Assembly (NCBI GenBank): GCA_019059635.1 | Contig: JAGVRJ010000001.1 | Location: forward strand, 1,426,001-1,490,000 | From: Proales similis | Lineage: Eukaryota > Rotifera > Eurotatoria > Ploima > Proalidae | Direction: 5' to 3' | Length of the DNA stretch: 64,000 nucleotides | In this document: positions 53,693 to 64,000 of the stretch, one piece after another | How the letters are laid out: each line of letters begins with the position of its first letter | Position numbering within the stretch: position 1 is the first letter of the stretch | Position numbers and translations under genes: made by a program | Notes under the pieces: model-generated | The model's database searches: none | Told to the model about the DNA's origin: nothing | Seen by the model: only the letters and a program-made list of their open reading frames with translations

Positions 53693-55959
53693 ATGTCAAA
53701 ATCGGCGTCGTCGTCTAAATTTTATCAAGCGCCCACTGACCAGCTTGGCAATGCGATCAAGGTTCGAATTTTGCTCAAATAAAAGGCCGGTGTGTTTGTT
53801 AAATGAAATTTAGTTCGACGTGAGGGAGGATGAAGAGCAACAGACCAAACTTCAGGAGATTGTCGAACTGCTGGTCGCCGCCGGCTATTTTAGAGCTCGA
53901 ATCAAAGGCCTGTCGGCGTTCGACAAGATCGTTGGCGGAATGACCTGGTGCTTGACAATCTGCAATTTTGACGTTGATGTCGACCTTCTATTTCAAGAGA
54001 GCTCGACCATCGGCCAGAAAATGTGAGCACCATTCAAATCGATTGGGCCATCTAGCAAGCTTGTAACATGATTGTAGTCAGCTGGTCGAGAGGATTGTGG
54101 CCGTGCTGCCTTTGATGAAGTGTCCGCACCGCATTGAGCCGCATCAGATTCAAGGTCTCGACTTTATCCACATTTACCCGGTCATTCAAGTAAATCTCGG
54201 TCGCCATTGGCGGTTCGTTCTTTTGGTTCCTAACACTCGCTCAAGTGGCTGGTGAAAAAAGCGATCGAAACGCGAGCAGAGCTCGGGGACACCAACCGAT
54301 TGTTCGCGCTGCTTCAATTCGACAAGATGAAGCAAGAGGCCGAAAGCGCTGACCTGGCGGCCAAGAAAGTGATTGCGTCACAGACCATTCAGTCGCTGAA
54401 GGACTTGCATCGGCCCAAGCGAAAACTGCGTCGGCCAAACTTGCACTTGGTCAAGGACGACTACTCGAGAGTGCGACTCACGCTGCTCGAATACGGCCAG
54501 CAGCACATTTTGGCCAACGCGGGCAGTGTGGAGAGCGAAGGCCAAAAGGAGAACAAGACTGCGAGCGCTCGAGAGGAAGAGAAGCTGCGTCGCCAAGAGC
54601 AGGCCGAAGAGGACAAGAAGAGACTTGACGCAATGATCGGCGAGATGACCGAAGCCAAACTCAAACAGGTAGAAGATGTCCACGAGGAGCAGTTGAGAAA
54701 GCATTCGCTAACAAACAGTGACAGAACAAGGTGTCGTCTGGCGCGATCGGTGAAATGTTCAGTGTGCAGCAGAACAGCTTGCAGAAAATGGTGAACGAGT
54801 TTGCCAGCAAAGAAAACGAGCTGCAGTCGGAAATGAACGAGCTTGAGAGGATGCTGGAGAGCGGCGAAATCACGATAGGCAGCTTCCAACAGAAGCAGCG
54901 TCTAATAAACGTGATGAACAAGCAAAAGCAGCAGAGAAGCGGTGACATAAAGGACAGAGAGAGCGAGATCGAAACTCTCAAGCAGCGCGTGGTCGAACAG
55001 CAGCAAAAGCTTGACCAAGTAAGTCTTGTGTGCTTGATGACAACGGCCGCCAAACGTAATCGGCTTGAGTAGCTCAAACAAAGCCAGAACGAGTTGGGCG
55101 ATGAAATCGCGCGGCTTGAAGAGTTGGAGGCGAACGCAGACAAGAAGGCAGTGAGAGAGCTGGAAGAGCTGGTGAAAGTCTACGACGAGCTGAAGCAGAG
55201 AGAGCAAGAGTTTAAGAAGTCGTGCAAATCAGAAAAGGCCGAGCTCGAGGAGCAGATTGAGGTGTTGAGAAAGAGGCTGGAACAGTCGGAAGATCGGGAC
55301 AAGTTCGACGAGATCATGCAGAAACACGACGCTCTGAAGGAGAAAGTTGCCGCTTTGAAGCTTCGAGTGGCGAAGAAAAATCGAGAAATTTCAAGTCTTA
55401 ATCGAAAACTGGACGAAATACCGTCCCGAGTTGAACTGAGCCAGTACCAGAAGCGCTTCATTGAGCTTTTCAATCAAAGTAAGTTCAACCGTTTATTCGA
55501 TTTCATCTTACTAGGTCCCTACCGCTTGCTTAAACAGCTTCGGCCGTGCTCACACAAACAAGACGCTTCTACGCGTTCTACAACGTGCTGCAGGACAAAA
55601 AGTTCTACCTGAACAAAGAGATCAACCTGCTCAACTCATTGAACGAGCAGTTCGGCAAGTAGGCCAGCTTGTGAAAGCAAAGCGAACGCGCTTTTGACTT
55701 GTTGCAAAGGGCAATGATGAGCGCGGAGAGTCGGGAGAGACTTTTGCAGCAGCTCTCCTCTATTCTGTCGGCGCTCAATGGCAATTTGGAGAAGCTGAAC
55801 GAGAAAAAGTCCACTTCCAAGGCCGAGCTAGATCGACTCAACGACCAGTTGGCCGATCTAAATCAGAAGAAACGTCTCTACTATCGAACCGTTCAAGACT
55901 TTCAGGACGAATGCCGACGAAACGATTTGCTTCAGTCTAAACTTGCGGACAGGAGCTGA
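53693..55959 (+). CDS. CCDC93: CCDC93, subunit of the CCC endosomal recycling complex
   Basis: Works with CCDC22, COMMD proteins and VPS35L to recycle membrane cargo together with retriever and WASH. Eight exons (53693-53761, 53814-54022, 54078-54189, 54246-54668, 54725-55018, 55073-55478, 55538-55658, 55683-55959) give 636 residues against about 631 in human. The N-terminal calponin-homology-like domain is strongly conserved ([60 protein letters not shown]). From about residue 230 on it is charged coiled coil. The junction between exons 7 and 8 is placed by phase and is slightly uncertain. Confidence 0.95.
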
Positions 55960-56648: not shown

Positions 56649-59600
56649 ATGGATTCTCGAAGAGAGTCGCTTTCAATTGAGGAATCCTTGAACGCATTTC
56701 CGGCCCATCTCGGCCTTCAACTGCCTGCTTCGGTATGGTTACGTAATCGGTTCGTTTTTCGTTTCGTCTCATTCGTGAATGGCTAAAGGAAAGCGGCTTA
56801 CGAGATAACGCGGAAGCGTTCGTGAGTCTGAATCTCAGCGTTCGGCAATCAAACTCGAATCAGCGACGTTATCGTCAAATAAGCTCAAGCGATCGAGTCA
56901 GGCGCCATTTGCGCACACTAACCAAATCGTGGGATCATTCGGTTCTGAAGAGCTTCATTCAGAAGAGAAAGATTCAAACAGAGCAAGAAGCTGAGCAGCA
57001 ACTCGATGAAATTGATCAAACCCAGCAAGTTTACAAGGTCGAGGCGAACGTTCAATTCACCGGTGACTCGGGCAAATACAGATTCGCAGTTGAAGAGCGC
57101 GGCCCGTCGGCTGGCAGTAAGTCGCCTCCACAATAAGCCAGTTTGAGGTCTAAAATAAAGCGAAAATCAAAAAGAAAAGGCAAAAGTGAACGATGAAGAC
57201 GAGCAGATTGCAATATTTGATCATCAGTCCAAACCGCTCTCGTATGAAAATCTTGACCACAACGAGAAGGAGCAAGTGCTCACCGAGCTTCTCTACCAAG
57301 GAGCCATGAGCAACATTATGAAGCATCGAATGGTAAGTCATGGTCAAGATCGACTAGGTTGCGAAATATTTTAATTTCTCCGCCTCTTGAGGTCGAGTTG
57401 AATGAATTGGAAGAAGAGGACTCGCAGCACAATCCCGAGCTGAGTCGATCTCAAATGCGAGCCCAGGCCAACCAGTCGTATGTGAAAGCTCAGAAATGGA
57501 TTCAGCAACGAAATGCCACGCTTGCCGACTCAATCGCACAACCGGCCGAAGAGAAGGAGAGCGCGATTCCCAAAAGAAACGAGCCAGTCTACATGTAAGT
57601 CGCGTTATCGTTTTCAAACGGTCAATTCTTTAATTAAACGAATCGAAAAAGGTTCGGTCGAATGGAAGGCGCCTCGTGGGTGCTGCGTAAAAACAAAGGT
57701 CAGAGTCGTAGGTGTCGCCTCTCGTTTTCGCTTGACTATTGATTAATGCAGATGCGGAGAGCAAGCAAAAAGCCAGCGAGCTGCCCAAACGGGCCAACGC
57801 AGCATTTTTCATGGCCTCCGAACGGATGGTTGGCAAAGCGGAGTCGAAACGGAGCTCACCTGTCGAGCTCAGTTCCAGCCTTGAAATTCGCGCTCTTCAA
57901 GGTGAACTAGACCGAGTCAATCTAGCGAGGCTCTTGTTTACCTGTTCTCGATCAAAGAAAAAGACTCGCCTCGCCAGTGGGACGAAACCGACGCGGACGA
58001 ACAAAACGAGATGAACAATCCGAACTCGAACACTTCGCCCGAGTCAAAGAGAACGGTCAAACTTGACAAAGAATTGATTGACCTTGACTACAGAGAAGAC
58101 AATGAAACCTCTCTTAAGTCAAGAACCGAGCGGCAGCCTCTCAAAAAGCAGCCTTTGGCCAGCTCGCTTCCTCCCATTCAATCCGCATCGACTGGCAACC
58201 AGCTGCGTAGGCTTTTGACTTAAAGTGAACTCGGCCTGATTCTCACTTCTGATCAGCCAAGAGGCTCACGCCTACTTTGAATATGGCTCACAGTCCAGTG
58301 TTTGATGAGGAACAAGCCCAAGTGGAAATAGTCAAACTGAAGGCCAAAACGAGCTCGTTCAGAGCATCCGAAGTGCCTTTGCAGCGCAGCTTAAGCTTCT
58401 TGGACAAAAGCTCCGAACAAGTGAAGAGCACCGGTTTGAACTTTCGATCCAAGAGTAAGCAGCACCTCTCGATTCCGTCTCTGTTTAAATTGAATTTCGT
58501 CGGAAAAGAAAGCCAACAAGAGTTGGCATCTAAAAGCGAACTTAATCGATCGGTTCGACCGCGAACAGAGACCACTGGCAAACAGACGCAAGCGGATGCA
58601 AACCGCAAGTCGATGCCGAATCGCTTCCGGCCGCTCGCTTCGAATCAGAATTTGGGAAAAAAACGTAAATTGTCGACTTAAGTCAGGAGCTAACTCGATC
58701 CAGTGCTGAAATGAGAAAACCGATCAGGTCTGGATTGGTCCAGTAACGGAGGCTTTGATCCACGCGACTGCTTCACTTTATGGTCGTACGAAACTCCAGG
58801 TGAGACGCGGACGGGCATCTTGCTGCAGAACTGAGAGAGTGAGAAATTTTAAGAACCGCCGGTGGTTGTGGACCGCGAGTTTGCCATGTCTCTAAAGCGA
58901 TACGCAGCTCTGATCGCTCGTCTGGTCCTGGGTGACAATCTGACTGGCAGCACACTCTCCGACGATTTAAAAGTGAGCCAAAGCTGTGCGGAGATTGCCA
59001 ACCGTTGAAATTGAAAGACCAAATTGAAAAGCGAGCGCTGCGAGCCAACTTGGAAAAGCTCAAAGACGCCATCCTCAAAGGCCGAATCAAGCAAAAGGTT
59101 CTCGACGAGTACAAGAAAATATTCCGGCAAATACTGGCCAAAACTTGTACGCATTTCGACTCAGGTCAACTTGATTGATGCTTGATTGATTGATTTCCTT
59201 TTCGACAGTGCAGAGAAAAGAGCTGGAGGATTTGGAGATCGACGACTACATTCTGATCAAGCTGCTCGAGCTTCCTCCGCACGCGTTCGAAATCTACACC
59301 GATCCGACGAGTGGCCGCGAGCGTCTCAGAATCCGATCGGCCTATCTTCGCGAAGAGGCCAAACGAGTCAGAAGTGAGCGATGATTTTCTGAATTGACTT
59401 GCTCTGTTGGTGATCAAGTTCATCATTTCTCACTTGCTCAAGATGTAGTCACCGAAAAGGCGCTGAACATGGACGACTTCGATGTCGAATACGATCCCAA
59501 GACAGGTAAAGCGATGTGGGCGCTGAATTTAGGCGGCCATTTCGGTTAAATTTAACTCAGGAGAGAAGAAACTTCGCCTGAAGGATGACGTAGCCCGACG

Positions 59601-62600
59601 ACTTGGAATTCCAAAAGGCGCCGAGGATCTGATCGAGATATTCACCGACGAGAACGGAAATCAGATTCTCCGACTCAAGGACGGCGCTCGCAACGTTCAG
59701 ATCGGTGAGCGGATTAAATAGCGAAATCGATTGCTCAACACGGCATTGATTGGATTGTGAAGGCGACACCTCATACGAGCTCGTGTTCGATCCAGACACT
59801 GGCCAGTACAAACTGAAAATGAGCACCAAGCAAAAAGTGGGCGAGGAGAGCTTGGAGGACATCATGCGACTGGCGCGTAAGTGATTTAAGATGAAGGACA
59901 AATGGCAACTCGCACACGCACTGAAAAGGAAACATGACGCCGGAGACGCGGCATCGCTATTTTCAAGAGCTGCTCAAGACCTCGGGCGGCAAAATGTCAG
60001 ACGAACTGCGGCGTCAAGTGATCGACCAAATGGTTCTTAACTCAAACGAGCTTGGCGAGGAGACGCGCAAAAATCTTCTCAAAGACCTGATGAGCAACTT
60101 GGCCCAAGGCATGGACCAGGAGCTGGCCAAGAAGGTCATGGGCGAAATAATGAAGTCAACCGACGCCAATCTGGACACTAGAACCAAACAGGAAATGTAC
60201 GAGCAGCTAATCGACAACTTGGACCAACTACCAGACGCGCTGAGGAACGACGCTCTCAAGCAAATGATGAACAACATGGAGAACATGCCGGCCGAGCAAA
60301 AGCACAAGCTGCTGAAAGATCTTTTTGACAAGGTCGAGCTTGGCGGAGGCGGCAACGAGTTGAAGAACGAGATTCTCGGCCAAATGATTAGAAACTCCGA
60401 AGGGCTTGACCAAGAGACTCGGCATCGAATAATGCAAGAGGTGCTGGAAAAGGTGAGCCAAGAGAACGGCGGCTCAGTGCCGCAGAACATCCTGCAAGAA
60501 CTGGTCAAGCAGATGCACGACTTGCCAGACGAGCTGCGCGACAGAGTTCTGGGCGAAATTGAGAAGAACATTCAAGAGGGCAACATGGACGGCAACGTGC
60601 TCAGCGAGCTGTTGAAGAACTCTGATCAGCTGCCGAGCGAGCTGCTCAACAAGTTGGCGCAGAACGCCGACAAGCTGGACAGCTCTGCATTGAAGGAGCT
60701 TGTGAAGAATCTGGACAAGCTGCCGGATGAGCTGAGAGAAGAGATATTGCACAAGATGGCGCAAGATTTGAACAACATGGACGCAGGAGTGAAGCACGAG
60801 CTGCTCAGAGAGTTGCTGAAAAATGCGGACGCGCTCAAGGATCCAGAGCTGCGTGACAAGGTCATCAAGGACCTGCTGGGCAGAATGAGCGCCGATGACG
60901 TGCGCAAAGAATTGGAAAACATGAGCGCCGAGGAGCGCAACAAATATCTGCAGGACTTGCTCAAGCATGCGGGCGACTTGGACGAGAACACGCGGCAGCA
61001 GATCGTCTCGATGCTGCTGGAGAACGCCAAGAACCTAGACGAAGAGGCACGCAACAATCTCATGGGCGAGGTCATGCAGAACGTGCTGAAAAACCTGGCG
61101 CCTGATATGGCCGCCAAGCTCATGGGCGATCTGATGAATGAATCGGCCAACTTGGGCGCGAACGAGAAGCGCAAGCTAATCGAGAACTTGATGCAGAACA
61201 TGGACCAAATGCCCGACGAGCTAAAGCAAGAGGCGTTCAAAGCGATCGCCAGCAATCTGGACGACATGTCGGCTGATTTCAAGCAAAACGTGTTCAACAA
61301 AATCATGAACAACGTCGACTCGCTGCCGGCCGAGATGCGAGACCAAGTCCTGGGAGCGCTCATAAACAATCTGGACAATTTGGACTCGAAAAAGAGGCAA
61401 GAGTTCCTCGAGAGTGTGTTGAACAAGATCGAAACGGGCGGCGAGGGCCAGGCAGGCGAGAGTGAGCTGAGTCGAAAGCTGCGCAACGAAGTGCTCAAAG
61501 AAATGGTGAAGAATTCGCAGAACTTGGACGAGCAGCAGCGCAGCAAGATCTTACAGAACGTGATGAGCCGCCTGAAGAACGAGGGCGACTCGGGTGGCCT
61601 CGTGATGGAAGAGCTCTTTAAGCAGATGAACGACCTGCCGGACACGATAAAAAACGAGCTGCTGGACGAAATAGCCAAAAACATCGAAAGTGGAAACTTG
61701 GCTCCAAACGTGCTCAAGCAGCTGATGAAAAACTCGAAGAAGATTCCCAAAGAGCTGCTGAAGAAAGTGATCGACAATTTGGACCAGCTCGAGCCAGAGG
61801 CGATCAAAGAGCTCATTTCAAATCTGGACGAGCTGCCCGATGATCTCAAAGAGAAAGCGCTTGCTGACATGATGAAAAACCTGAACAAGATGGAGCCGGG
61901 CGCGCAAAAAGAGCTGCTCAACGAACTGCTCAAGAACGGCAAATCGAACGATCCGAGCAAGAAGCGAGTGATCGAGAAGGCCATCATGGACATAATGGAC
62001 AATCTGGACAACGTGCCGGAGAACGTCAGACGCGACATGATTCGAAACATCGCCAAGAACATAAACAGCCTGTCCAAAGAGAACAAGAAGCAGGTTTGAC
62101 TTGGGTGCTAGTCGCTGCAGGCCAATCGACTTTTCAACTTTCTTCCTTCCTTCTTCAAAGGCGATCAAGCAAGTTTTAGGCCGAATCGAAAAGGCCGACG
62201 ACCAGAGCCGCAAAGAGGTTCTCAAACAGCTGGTGAAAAACATGGGCCGAGAGGAGCTCGAAGAGTGGATTAGAAACAGCGACATTTCTGACGAGCTCAA
62301 ACAGCAAATGCTAAACGACCTAAATCAGATTATCGGTGAGTCTTGAGCGCGATATTGATGGCTGAAAAAGCTTAATATACTGAAAATGTTTTTTGCTCAG
62401 CAAACGAGGACTACCTGTTGGACAGCGACGACGTAAGTTCTCTCACTTTTCAGCTTTTTTTGTTCTTAATCGAGGCAATCACAAAAAAAGGAATTCGAGC
62501 TGGTAAATCTGAGCGGCGAGGAGAAGGAAACCAGAAGGCGGCAGTTGATTGAGAAAAGGAAGAAGCAAAAGGTGACCGATAGCGAAAAGTAAGCGCCACG

Positions 62601-63215
62601 AGCCAACTTGACCAACTTTTGAGCGCCTCTCGAACTGAACATTTTCAAGCATTGTTGGCAAGCCGGTCGTAAAGAGAGATTTCAAATGGCTGCAGCAAAA
62701 CAAAAACGACTTGTTGTCGTCTGACCGCGTTGACGACAACCCAAACAGAGAACGTAAAGCCTCGGCATTTCGACTTTATCGGTCAGATCTCACTTCAAGA
62801 GCGTGTTGAATTAGTGAACGAAGAAGAAGTCGACTTTGTGCGAGCGTTCAACAAGCTGAGCGACGACGAGAAGACAAAACTTCTGGAGACGTTGAGCGAA
62901 GGCGAGCGCGACAATCTGCTCAAACTCCAGTCCAAATATGAAGAGTAAGACTCTGCCCGTTTGCTTCTGAGTAGCCGCATTGATCGAGCTCGTGATAAAA
63001 GCCTCAGACAAAAAGAGCTGGAAGCGGCACTGACCGACGCACGCGACCAGGCGATCGCGCAACTGAGGGACTTGTTGGCTGCTCAACGTCGACTTGACTA
63101 CCTTCGCTTTCTTCAAGTCGAATCCAACATGCTCAATCACACGCAGCAGTTGACCAGGGCTTTTGTTTATTCCTACTTTGAATTTTTGGGCTTCATCGAT
63201 CCCATGGCCATCTGA
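56649..63215 (+). CDS. Large repeat-rich protein of unknown function
   Basis: Spliced gene of about twenty exons and roughly 1,600-1,700 residues, ending ...FLGFIDPMAI. N-terminal part (56649-58800): hydrophilic, disordered, beginning MDSRRESLSIEESLNAF. Linking of exons near 57900-57935 and 58980-59030 is uncertain, so this could be two genes. Then a helical segment (LEKLKDAILKGRIKQKVLDE) and, at 59200-59880, four copies of a short D-[P/E]-x-x-G-x-x-x-L-[R/K] unit. Exon 59929-62093 holds about 720 residues of roughly 20-residue helical units (typical: NLDKLPDELREEILHKM). The last exons (62161-63215) are charged helix with more of the same units, then FVYSYFEF. There is no signal peptide or membrane segment. 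The long charged helices would suit a cytoskeletal or axonemal scaffold, which is a guess. I recognise no family. Confidence 0.75.
59200..59880 (+). repeat. Four-copy beta-hairpin-like coding repeat
   Basis: Within the large gene, four segments share one pattern: FEIYTDPTSGRERLRIR, FDVEYDPKTGEKKLRLK, IEIFTDENGNQILRLKD and YELVFDPDTGQYKLKMS. Each has alternating hydrophobics, an Asp-x-x-x-Gly turn, then Leu-basic alternation, as in a beta hairpin. They lie about 40-50 residues apart, and two junctions fall inside or beside the turns, so exon shuffling may have spread them. Confidence 0.7.
59929..62093 (+). repeat. Nested helical repeat: two ~350-residue super-modules of ~20-residue units
   Basis: One 2,165-bp exon. 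Units of 15-24, mostly 19-20, residues start with Pro or Asp-x-Glu and continue L-[R/K]-x-x-[V/L]-[L/M]-x-x-[M/L]-x-[K/N]-N. The whole series is itself duplicated. MTPETRHRYFQELL at the start matches MSAEERNKYLQDLL near residue 328. Further, NELKNEILGQMIRNSEGLD at about residue 141 matches RKLRNEVLKEMVKNSQNLD at about 514. PDELRDRVLGEIEKNI matches PDTIKNELLDEIAKNI, with the order kept to the end. The second copy has about two extra units. DNA identity between copies is low, so the duplication is old. Confidence 0.85.
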
Positions 63216-63267: not shown

Positions 63268-64000
63268 TTAATCCAGTTCAACAATGAGCGGCTTTTTATC
63301 TCGAATGTTCAAATCTGCAAACTGTTGCAGACCATCTTCGACCTGGCGGTCCTCTCGATCCGAGTGGATTTTGACTGGATCGACATCCTCCTCCTCCTCG
63401 TCTTCTTCTTCATTTTGACTGCTAGGACCGCCGTGCTCTGCCTGCTGCATGGCGAGAGTGCCGATGAGCTCCAAATTGGGCAGATCCCAGCCAATTTGAC
63501 TTTTCTTCAATTGAACCTAATCGCACCAAACGCCGTCATCGATTTGCTCGACCATGAAAGAAAGAAGCACTCACACTCTTAAGACACTCTACCAGGGCAT
63601 TCAGCTTTCGGTCACTATTCGAACGGAATTGAAAGAGTGTTTTGGGCAATAGCTTAGGCCTGATCCTTACCTGGCGTGCTGGATCCACACACAATAGTCG
63701 TTTATGTACAGGTCATTGAGAATGTAGCGGCAGTCGGTGTCCATAAGACAGCTTCTGATGTCAATCAGGCATTTGACAATCATTCGTTTGCCCTTGGCAA
63801 GAATACCGATCAGATCTTGGACGATTCGCTCGCAGAGTTTCCAACTTCGGTAAAGTGGAAAGCAAAGGGCGCGTCTAAAGCAAGCTATGAGGACCTCCTC
63901 GAGTGAGTCGAATACCTAGAATGAATGAATCGACTGAACAATAGACGACCGGTGCCAACATACTCACATCGAACCAGGAGAGAGTGCTGCTCAATTTGCC
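63268..64000 (-). CDS. SHQ1: SHQ1, H/ACA ribonucleoprotein assembly factor (C-terminal part)
   Basis: SHQ1 is the chaperone that holds dyskerin before it enters H/ACA snoRNPs and telomerase. The gene enters from the right edge. Exons in the window: 64000-63968 (KLSSTLSWFD), 63915-63671 (FDSLEEVLIACFRRALCFPL and YRSWKLCERIVQDLIGILA, ending INDYCVWIQHA), 63614-63575 and 63516-63268. These match the SHQ1 C-terminal helical domain segment by segment, including the GKRMIVKCLIDIRS helix and KSQIGWDLPNLEL. The tail is acidic (NEEEDEEEEDVD) and ends KKPLIVELD. The N-terminal CS-like domain is outside the window. Confidence 0.88.

Follow-up and report, generated by a model that had tools for sequence, protein, structure and literature searches.

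An array of short helical units that occurs twice, in the same order, within a single exon is encoded in the 64,000-nucleotide stretch that we analysed (the window) of the genome of Proales similis, a monogonont rotifer. The exon lies at 59929..62093 on the forward strand. We favour, with a probability of about 65%, the reading that it encodes most of an elastic, intracellular alpha-solenoid scaffold for multiple partners, with an array duplicated once and of a family undescribed in the libraries searched. The general architecture is already known, and it is for this alpha-solenoid that no described family was found. For comparison we used two related proteins, P0001 of Brachionus calyciflorus (2260 amino acids) and P0002 (1242 amino acids, truncated), the latter presumably from a rotifer. 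The array is laid out in the window as follows.

59929..62093, + strand: exon 16, units 1-38 in full and the beginning of unit 39
59931..60917, + strand: super-module A, units 1-18, 329 residues (coordinates from unit lengths)
60918..62009, + strand: super-module B, units 19-37, 364 residues, matching the unit order of A (alignment, unit table, module tree)
61263..61376, + strand: extra units 25 and 26, 19 residues each, in module B only (in all three proteins)
62010..62093, + strand: unit 38 plus the initial nine residues of unit 39 (unit table)

A preliminary description of this DNA had pointed to a single 2.2-kb exon in an otherwise intron-rich gene, encoding about 35 helical units. The exon, number 16 of 22, is indeed 2165 nucleotides long and open over 721 codons, with splice borders (59929-62093) inside an open frame (59925-62099). 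The helical array likewise stood, but its count rose to 42 units, 38 of them complete within exon 16 and unit 39 interrupted by the intron that follows. We drew the borders between units by eye, using the Brachionus protein, and transferred them to Proales through the alignment. In Proales, 15 units are 19 residues long, nine have 15, six have 20 and three have 21, and the other nine range from 9 to 34 residues; 33 of the 42 thus have 15 or 19-21 residues. Compared position by position, the 15 units with a length of 19 residues in both Proales and Brachionus give the consensus [DN]-[LM]-[PSD]-[DEA]-[ED]-[LV]-[KR]-x-[KQE]-h-[LI]-x-x-[LIM]-h-[KN]-N-h-[DNE], which contains the D/P-x-E-L-[R/K] start noticed earlier.

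The claim that the whole ordered array is present twice rests on several comparisons. Exon residues 19-345 and 347-709 align with 126 identities among 315 aligned residues (40%) and a score of 591, against a maximum of 109 in 100 residue shuffles. A control in which coarse blocks of the second half were permuted 300 times (mean 442, maximum 572) was passed only narrowly, because its blocks are large. The unit-order test is sharper: the best partners of A1-A18 in module B form an increasing run for 16 of the 18 units, whereas 10,000 permutations reached at most 10. The exceptions are A15, which is most similar to B6 with the expected B17 second, and A13, for which B16 and B15 nearly tie; A18, of nine residues, has only a weak partner. 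Units 19-24 and 27-37 mirror units 1-17 in order, and module B carries two additional units after its sixth.

These extra units, 25 and 26, account for most of the move in offset from 327 to 371, with longer loops supplying the rest. The offsets near 325 and then 373 reported from first inspection, and their attribution to inserted units, agree with the measured 327 and 371/373. In the self-comparison that had been proposed as a check, the best 40-residue diagonals scored 122 at offset 371, 102 at offset 164 and 92 at offset 327, and the maxima of 20 residue shuffles were 34-52. A finer ordered repeat inside module A, as offset 164 might imply, was ruled out: similarity there is scattered (A6-A15, A7-A9, A12-A14) and forms no ordered half-module.

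The same doubled array is present in Brachionus calyciflorus. P0001 covers the whole array at 49% identity and aligns over both flanks too, and all 42 units align in the same order between the two species; P0002 covers 66% at 48% identity and stops within unit 29. Between Proales and Brachionus, orthologous units share 49.7% identity on average and non-orthologous units 20.4%, and the best match lies at the same place for 27 of the 42 units. The maintenance of unit number and order argues for selection on the array. A reading as repetitive filler, or as a gene-model artefact without a selected array, is barely credible and is largely refuted by the alignment of array and flanks with the Brachionus protein. 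The gene model is built from splice sites and homology only, which would leave room for an artefact, but the exon is open throughout and DNA tandem repeats are nearly absent, limited to four rows of 20-44 bases. From this scarcity we take the repeats to be old.

Judged from the sequences, the duplication is older than the divergence of the compared lineages, because modules A and B of the three proteins separate with 100/100 support in a tree of six modules. This tree omitted units 18, 25, 26 and 38-42, and module B of P0002 was partial; label shuffles on its six rows, which have little power, clustered equally in 51 and 40 of 500 cases. Raw identities alone are insufficient to show the age of the duplication, and the Proales branches are long: between Proales and Brachionus, A-A identity is 47.6% and B-B identity 51.1%, and within single proteins A-B identity is 39.2% in Proales, 48.9% in Brachionus and 52.1% in P0002.

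So far, the array is found in two rotifer genera and in P0002. Protein searches in which the best 7984 candidates by shared words were scored gave P0001 and P0002 as the only full relatives. One that scored the best 7990 candidates, and for which P0001 was too long, returned only its own query, and so did one that scored all 4504 candidates of about 1243-3955 amino acids, a range that P0002 just misses. These searches, which had no positive control for bdelloid proteins, would miss any relative in bdelloids, acanthocephalans or other animals that is distant, short or split, and restriction of the array to rotifers is accordingly tentative. No paper on this protein was among those listed in searches of the open-licence literature.

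AlphaFold2, working from shallow alignments only, predicts about one helix per unit and an alpha-solenoid. The preliminary description had expected a long solenoid or rod, possibly of a new scaffold class; the solenoid is what is predicted, a rod is not favoured, and the idea of a new class is not supported, since known alpha-solenoids, of the HEAT/ARM type and others, surround the predicted model in structure comparisons. Its least confident stretch is exon residues 503-507, in the loop of unit 27 (window 61431-61478), and the composition of this loop differs, with many Gly residues in Proales and many Asp/Glu residues in Brachionus.

The helices are rich in L, E, K, N and D and, in the two species together, carry proline at position 3 in 14 of 30 19-mers; such features would also suit amphipathic helices wrapped around lipid or membrane, as in apolipoproteins, or an extended rod instead of a stacked solenoid. 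We consider this quite improbable: the models match stacked solenoids, no apolipoprotein model occurs among the Pfam matches listed, units two apart are more similar than neighbours (lag-2 > lag-1, p 0.012 and 0.019), and conservation is unit-specific.

A HEAT repeat is a two-helix hairpin of about 40 residues. Like the HEAT alpha-solenoids of PP2A subunit A, importin beta and CAND1, the rotifer array is predicted to consist of short stacked helices in a long superhelix, and neighbouring units, unless separated by a long loop, together span 30-40 residues. Unlike them, it showed no HEAT sequence signature in our searches, has units of 19 and 15 residues and is duplicated as a whole. The armadillo protein importin alpha has the top Z of the structural comparison, 15.8 over 363 residues, tied with PP2A subunit A and importin beta, but no ARM sequence model is among the Pfam matches listed and the rotifer units are mostly one helix each, whereas ARM repeats are described as containing helices H1, H2 and H3 (PMC11514114).

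We therefore weighed the possibility that this is a true HEAT (or ARM) protein by descent that has diverged past the reach of family models, an unlikely but serious alternative. Three observations speak for it. The nearest solved structures to the predicted model are mostly HEAT/ARM-type, albeit with low TM-scores. A HEAT protein of Theionarchaea (P0003, 991 amino acids) matches weakly at E 5.9e-6, with 25% identity over 40%, and by eye its 34-residue repeats start N-F-D-K-L-P-E-E-Y-R where rotifer units have N-L-D-K-L-P-D-E-L-R. TFCD_C, which we take to be solenoid-like, matches weakly in all three members (best E 4.5e-5), and FANCI_S2 matches the exon at E 0.04.

Against descent, no HEAT or ARM Pfam model was among the matches listed at E up to 1 with the exon or at E up to 0.1 with the three members. 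A profile of eight of the 34-residue archaeal repeats gave 11.3 bits for Proales and 3.3 and 2.6 for its relatives, but 10 of 200 column-shuffled controls (195 reported) reached the Proales score; residue shuffles gave at most 1.8. P0003 was rejected as a true relative, its similarity not rising above these controls, and the resemblance is apparently convergence, as judged with this one archaeal HEAT protein only. Kinship with HEAT cannot be shown from sequence.

Column-shuffled sequences also served as controls for the family searches. Three of four such controls, which remain 36-39% identical to the original and keep the inner parts of the few long units unshuffled, drew unrelated Pfam matches at E 1.5e-5 to 3e-6, and two of the controls had matches above a cut-off. 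Because these are comparable to the matches of the real proteins, a point that also counts against HEAT/ARM descent, we treat the latter as pattern noise: TFCD_C; Arg_tRNA_synt_N, the exon's one match above its cut-off (25.9 bits against 21.5, E 1.5e-5, two of three members); and DUF3106 (two of three members, best E 7.9e-7), which one control itself drew, although its match in a relative, the strongest real one, is somewhat better than the best control. NCBIfam matches were rejected (best E 2.9e-4, 20.4 bits against a cut-off of 198), and a search of PDB sequences was unconvincing (best E 0.054 for the exon, 0.09 for the profile). The remark in the preliminary description that no named family with this unit was known to its author agrees with the absence of a convincing Pfam, NCBIfam or PDB sequence family for the array.

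In the scaffold reading that we prefer, 42 short amphipathic helices, mostly one per unit of 15 or 19-21 residues, would stack in antiparallel pairs, much as HEAT repeats do. A single head-to-tail duplication of an array of about 17 units preceded the divergence of the compared lineages, and unit number and order have been maintained since. Unit-specific conserved surfaces of the superhelix may bind several partners along its length, and three parts, described below where conserved, may anchor it: the N-terminal tail, the region of beta-hairpin-like repeats and the C-terminal region. By eye, a signal peptide is absent, which suggests an intracellular location, and the N-terminal tail appears disordered. 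The fixed, ordered array and its unit-specific conserved residues fit a binding scaffold better than filler or a spacer, and the net acidic character of the exon 16 protein (137 D+E against 105 K+R) is mildly against general nucleic-acid binding.

A more specific origin is also conceivable, namely a monogonont-restricted alpha-solenoid, independent of HEAT/ARM, in which a helix of about 19 residues was amplified and the array doubled to serve a rotifer-specific intracellular structure. We regard this as distinctly doubtful, less probable than HEAT/ARM descent. The structure may be the intracytoplasmic lamina of the syncytial skin or the ciliary corona; lophotrochin is presented as an example of a spiralian-specific ciliary gene (PMC7441323). 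Were the protein tied to such a structure, it could offer a molecular handle on it. More generally, this long alpha-solenoid, strictly ordered and matched to no described family, provides a clear case of two-level repeat evolution, from single-helix units to duplication of the whole array, with unit number and order conserved across two rotifer genera.

The protein extends beyond exon 16, and conserved regions flank the array on both sides, the upstream one with beta-hairpin-like repeats and the other C-terminal.

56649..63215, + strand: whole gene model, 22 exons and 21 introns of 46-70 nucleotides, all GT-AG, in a single frame of 1777 amino acids
58728..59146, + strand: exons 9-11, conserved region upstream of the array with motif F-D-P-R, helical by eye (alignment of three proteins)
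59209..59876, + strand: exons 12-15, about four beta-hairpin-like repeats of D-x-x-T-G-x-x-x-L-x-h-K type (by eye; conserved in three proteins)
62161..62335, + strand: exon 17, completing unit 39 and closing the array with units 40-42 (conserved in Brachionus calyciflorus)
62401..63215, + strand: exons 18-22, C-terminal region, conserved at 50% identity with Brachionus calyciflorus

Exons 9-22 have homology support along the entire stretch and exons 2-5 match Brachionus over short stretches; less certain are the start codon and exons 1 and 6-8, for which frame and splice sites are the main evidence. Comparison with P0001 and P0002, both of which lack six residues there, led us to reset the exon 11 donor to 59146/59147. 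P0001, which carries the label 'unnamed protein product', differs from the Proales protein in its longer N-terminal part. In the alignment containing exons 9-11, identity between Proales and the two relatives is 63% and 57%; this region gave no convincing match, with none in Pfam at E 0.1, a best of E 0.0049 in one of three members and a PDB best of E 0.08. The repeats of exons 12-15 are a second kind of repeat in the same protein, directly before the helical array, and each of these exons ends in phase 1, a pattern compatible with exon duplication. The C-terminal region has an acidic, then a basic stretch and then helices (by eye), ending AFVYSYFEFL...; its best Pfam match, at E 0.11, was unconvincing, and RASSF5, the best PDB match at E 0.02, was not accepted as real.

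Downstream of the gene, two short open frames (window 63268-63903) gave no Pfam match at E 0.001. The genome is a compact spiralian one, as had been supposed: it is given as 33 Mb in PMC8878817 and as 32,722,929 bases in 15 contigs in a table of PMC11954553. The upstream neighbour, at window 53814-55612, is CCDC93, recognized in three pieces by CCDC93_N (E 3.1e-22) and CCDC93_CC (E 6e-10 and 1.4e-34).
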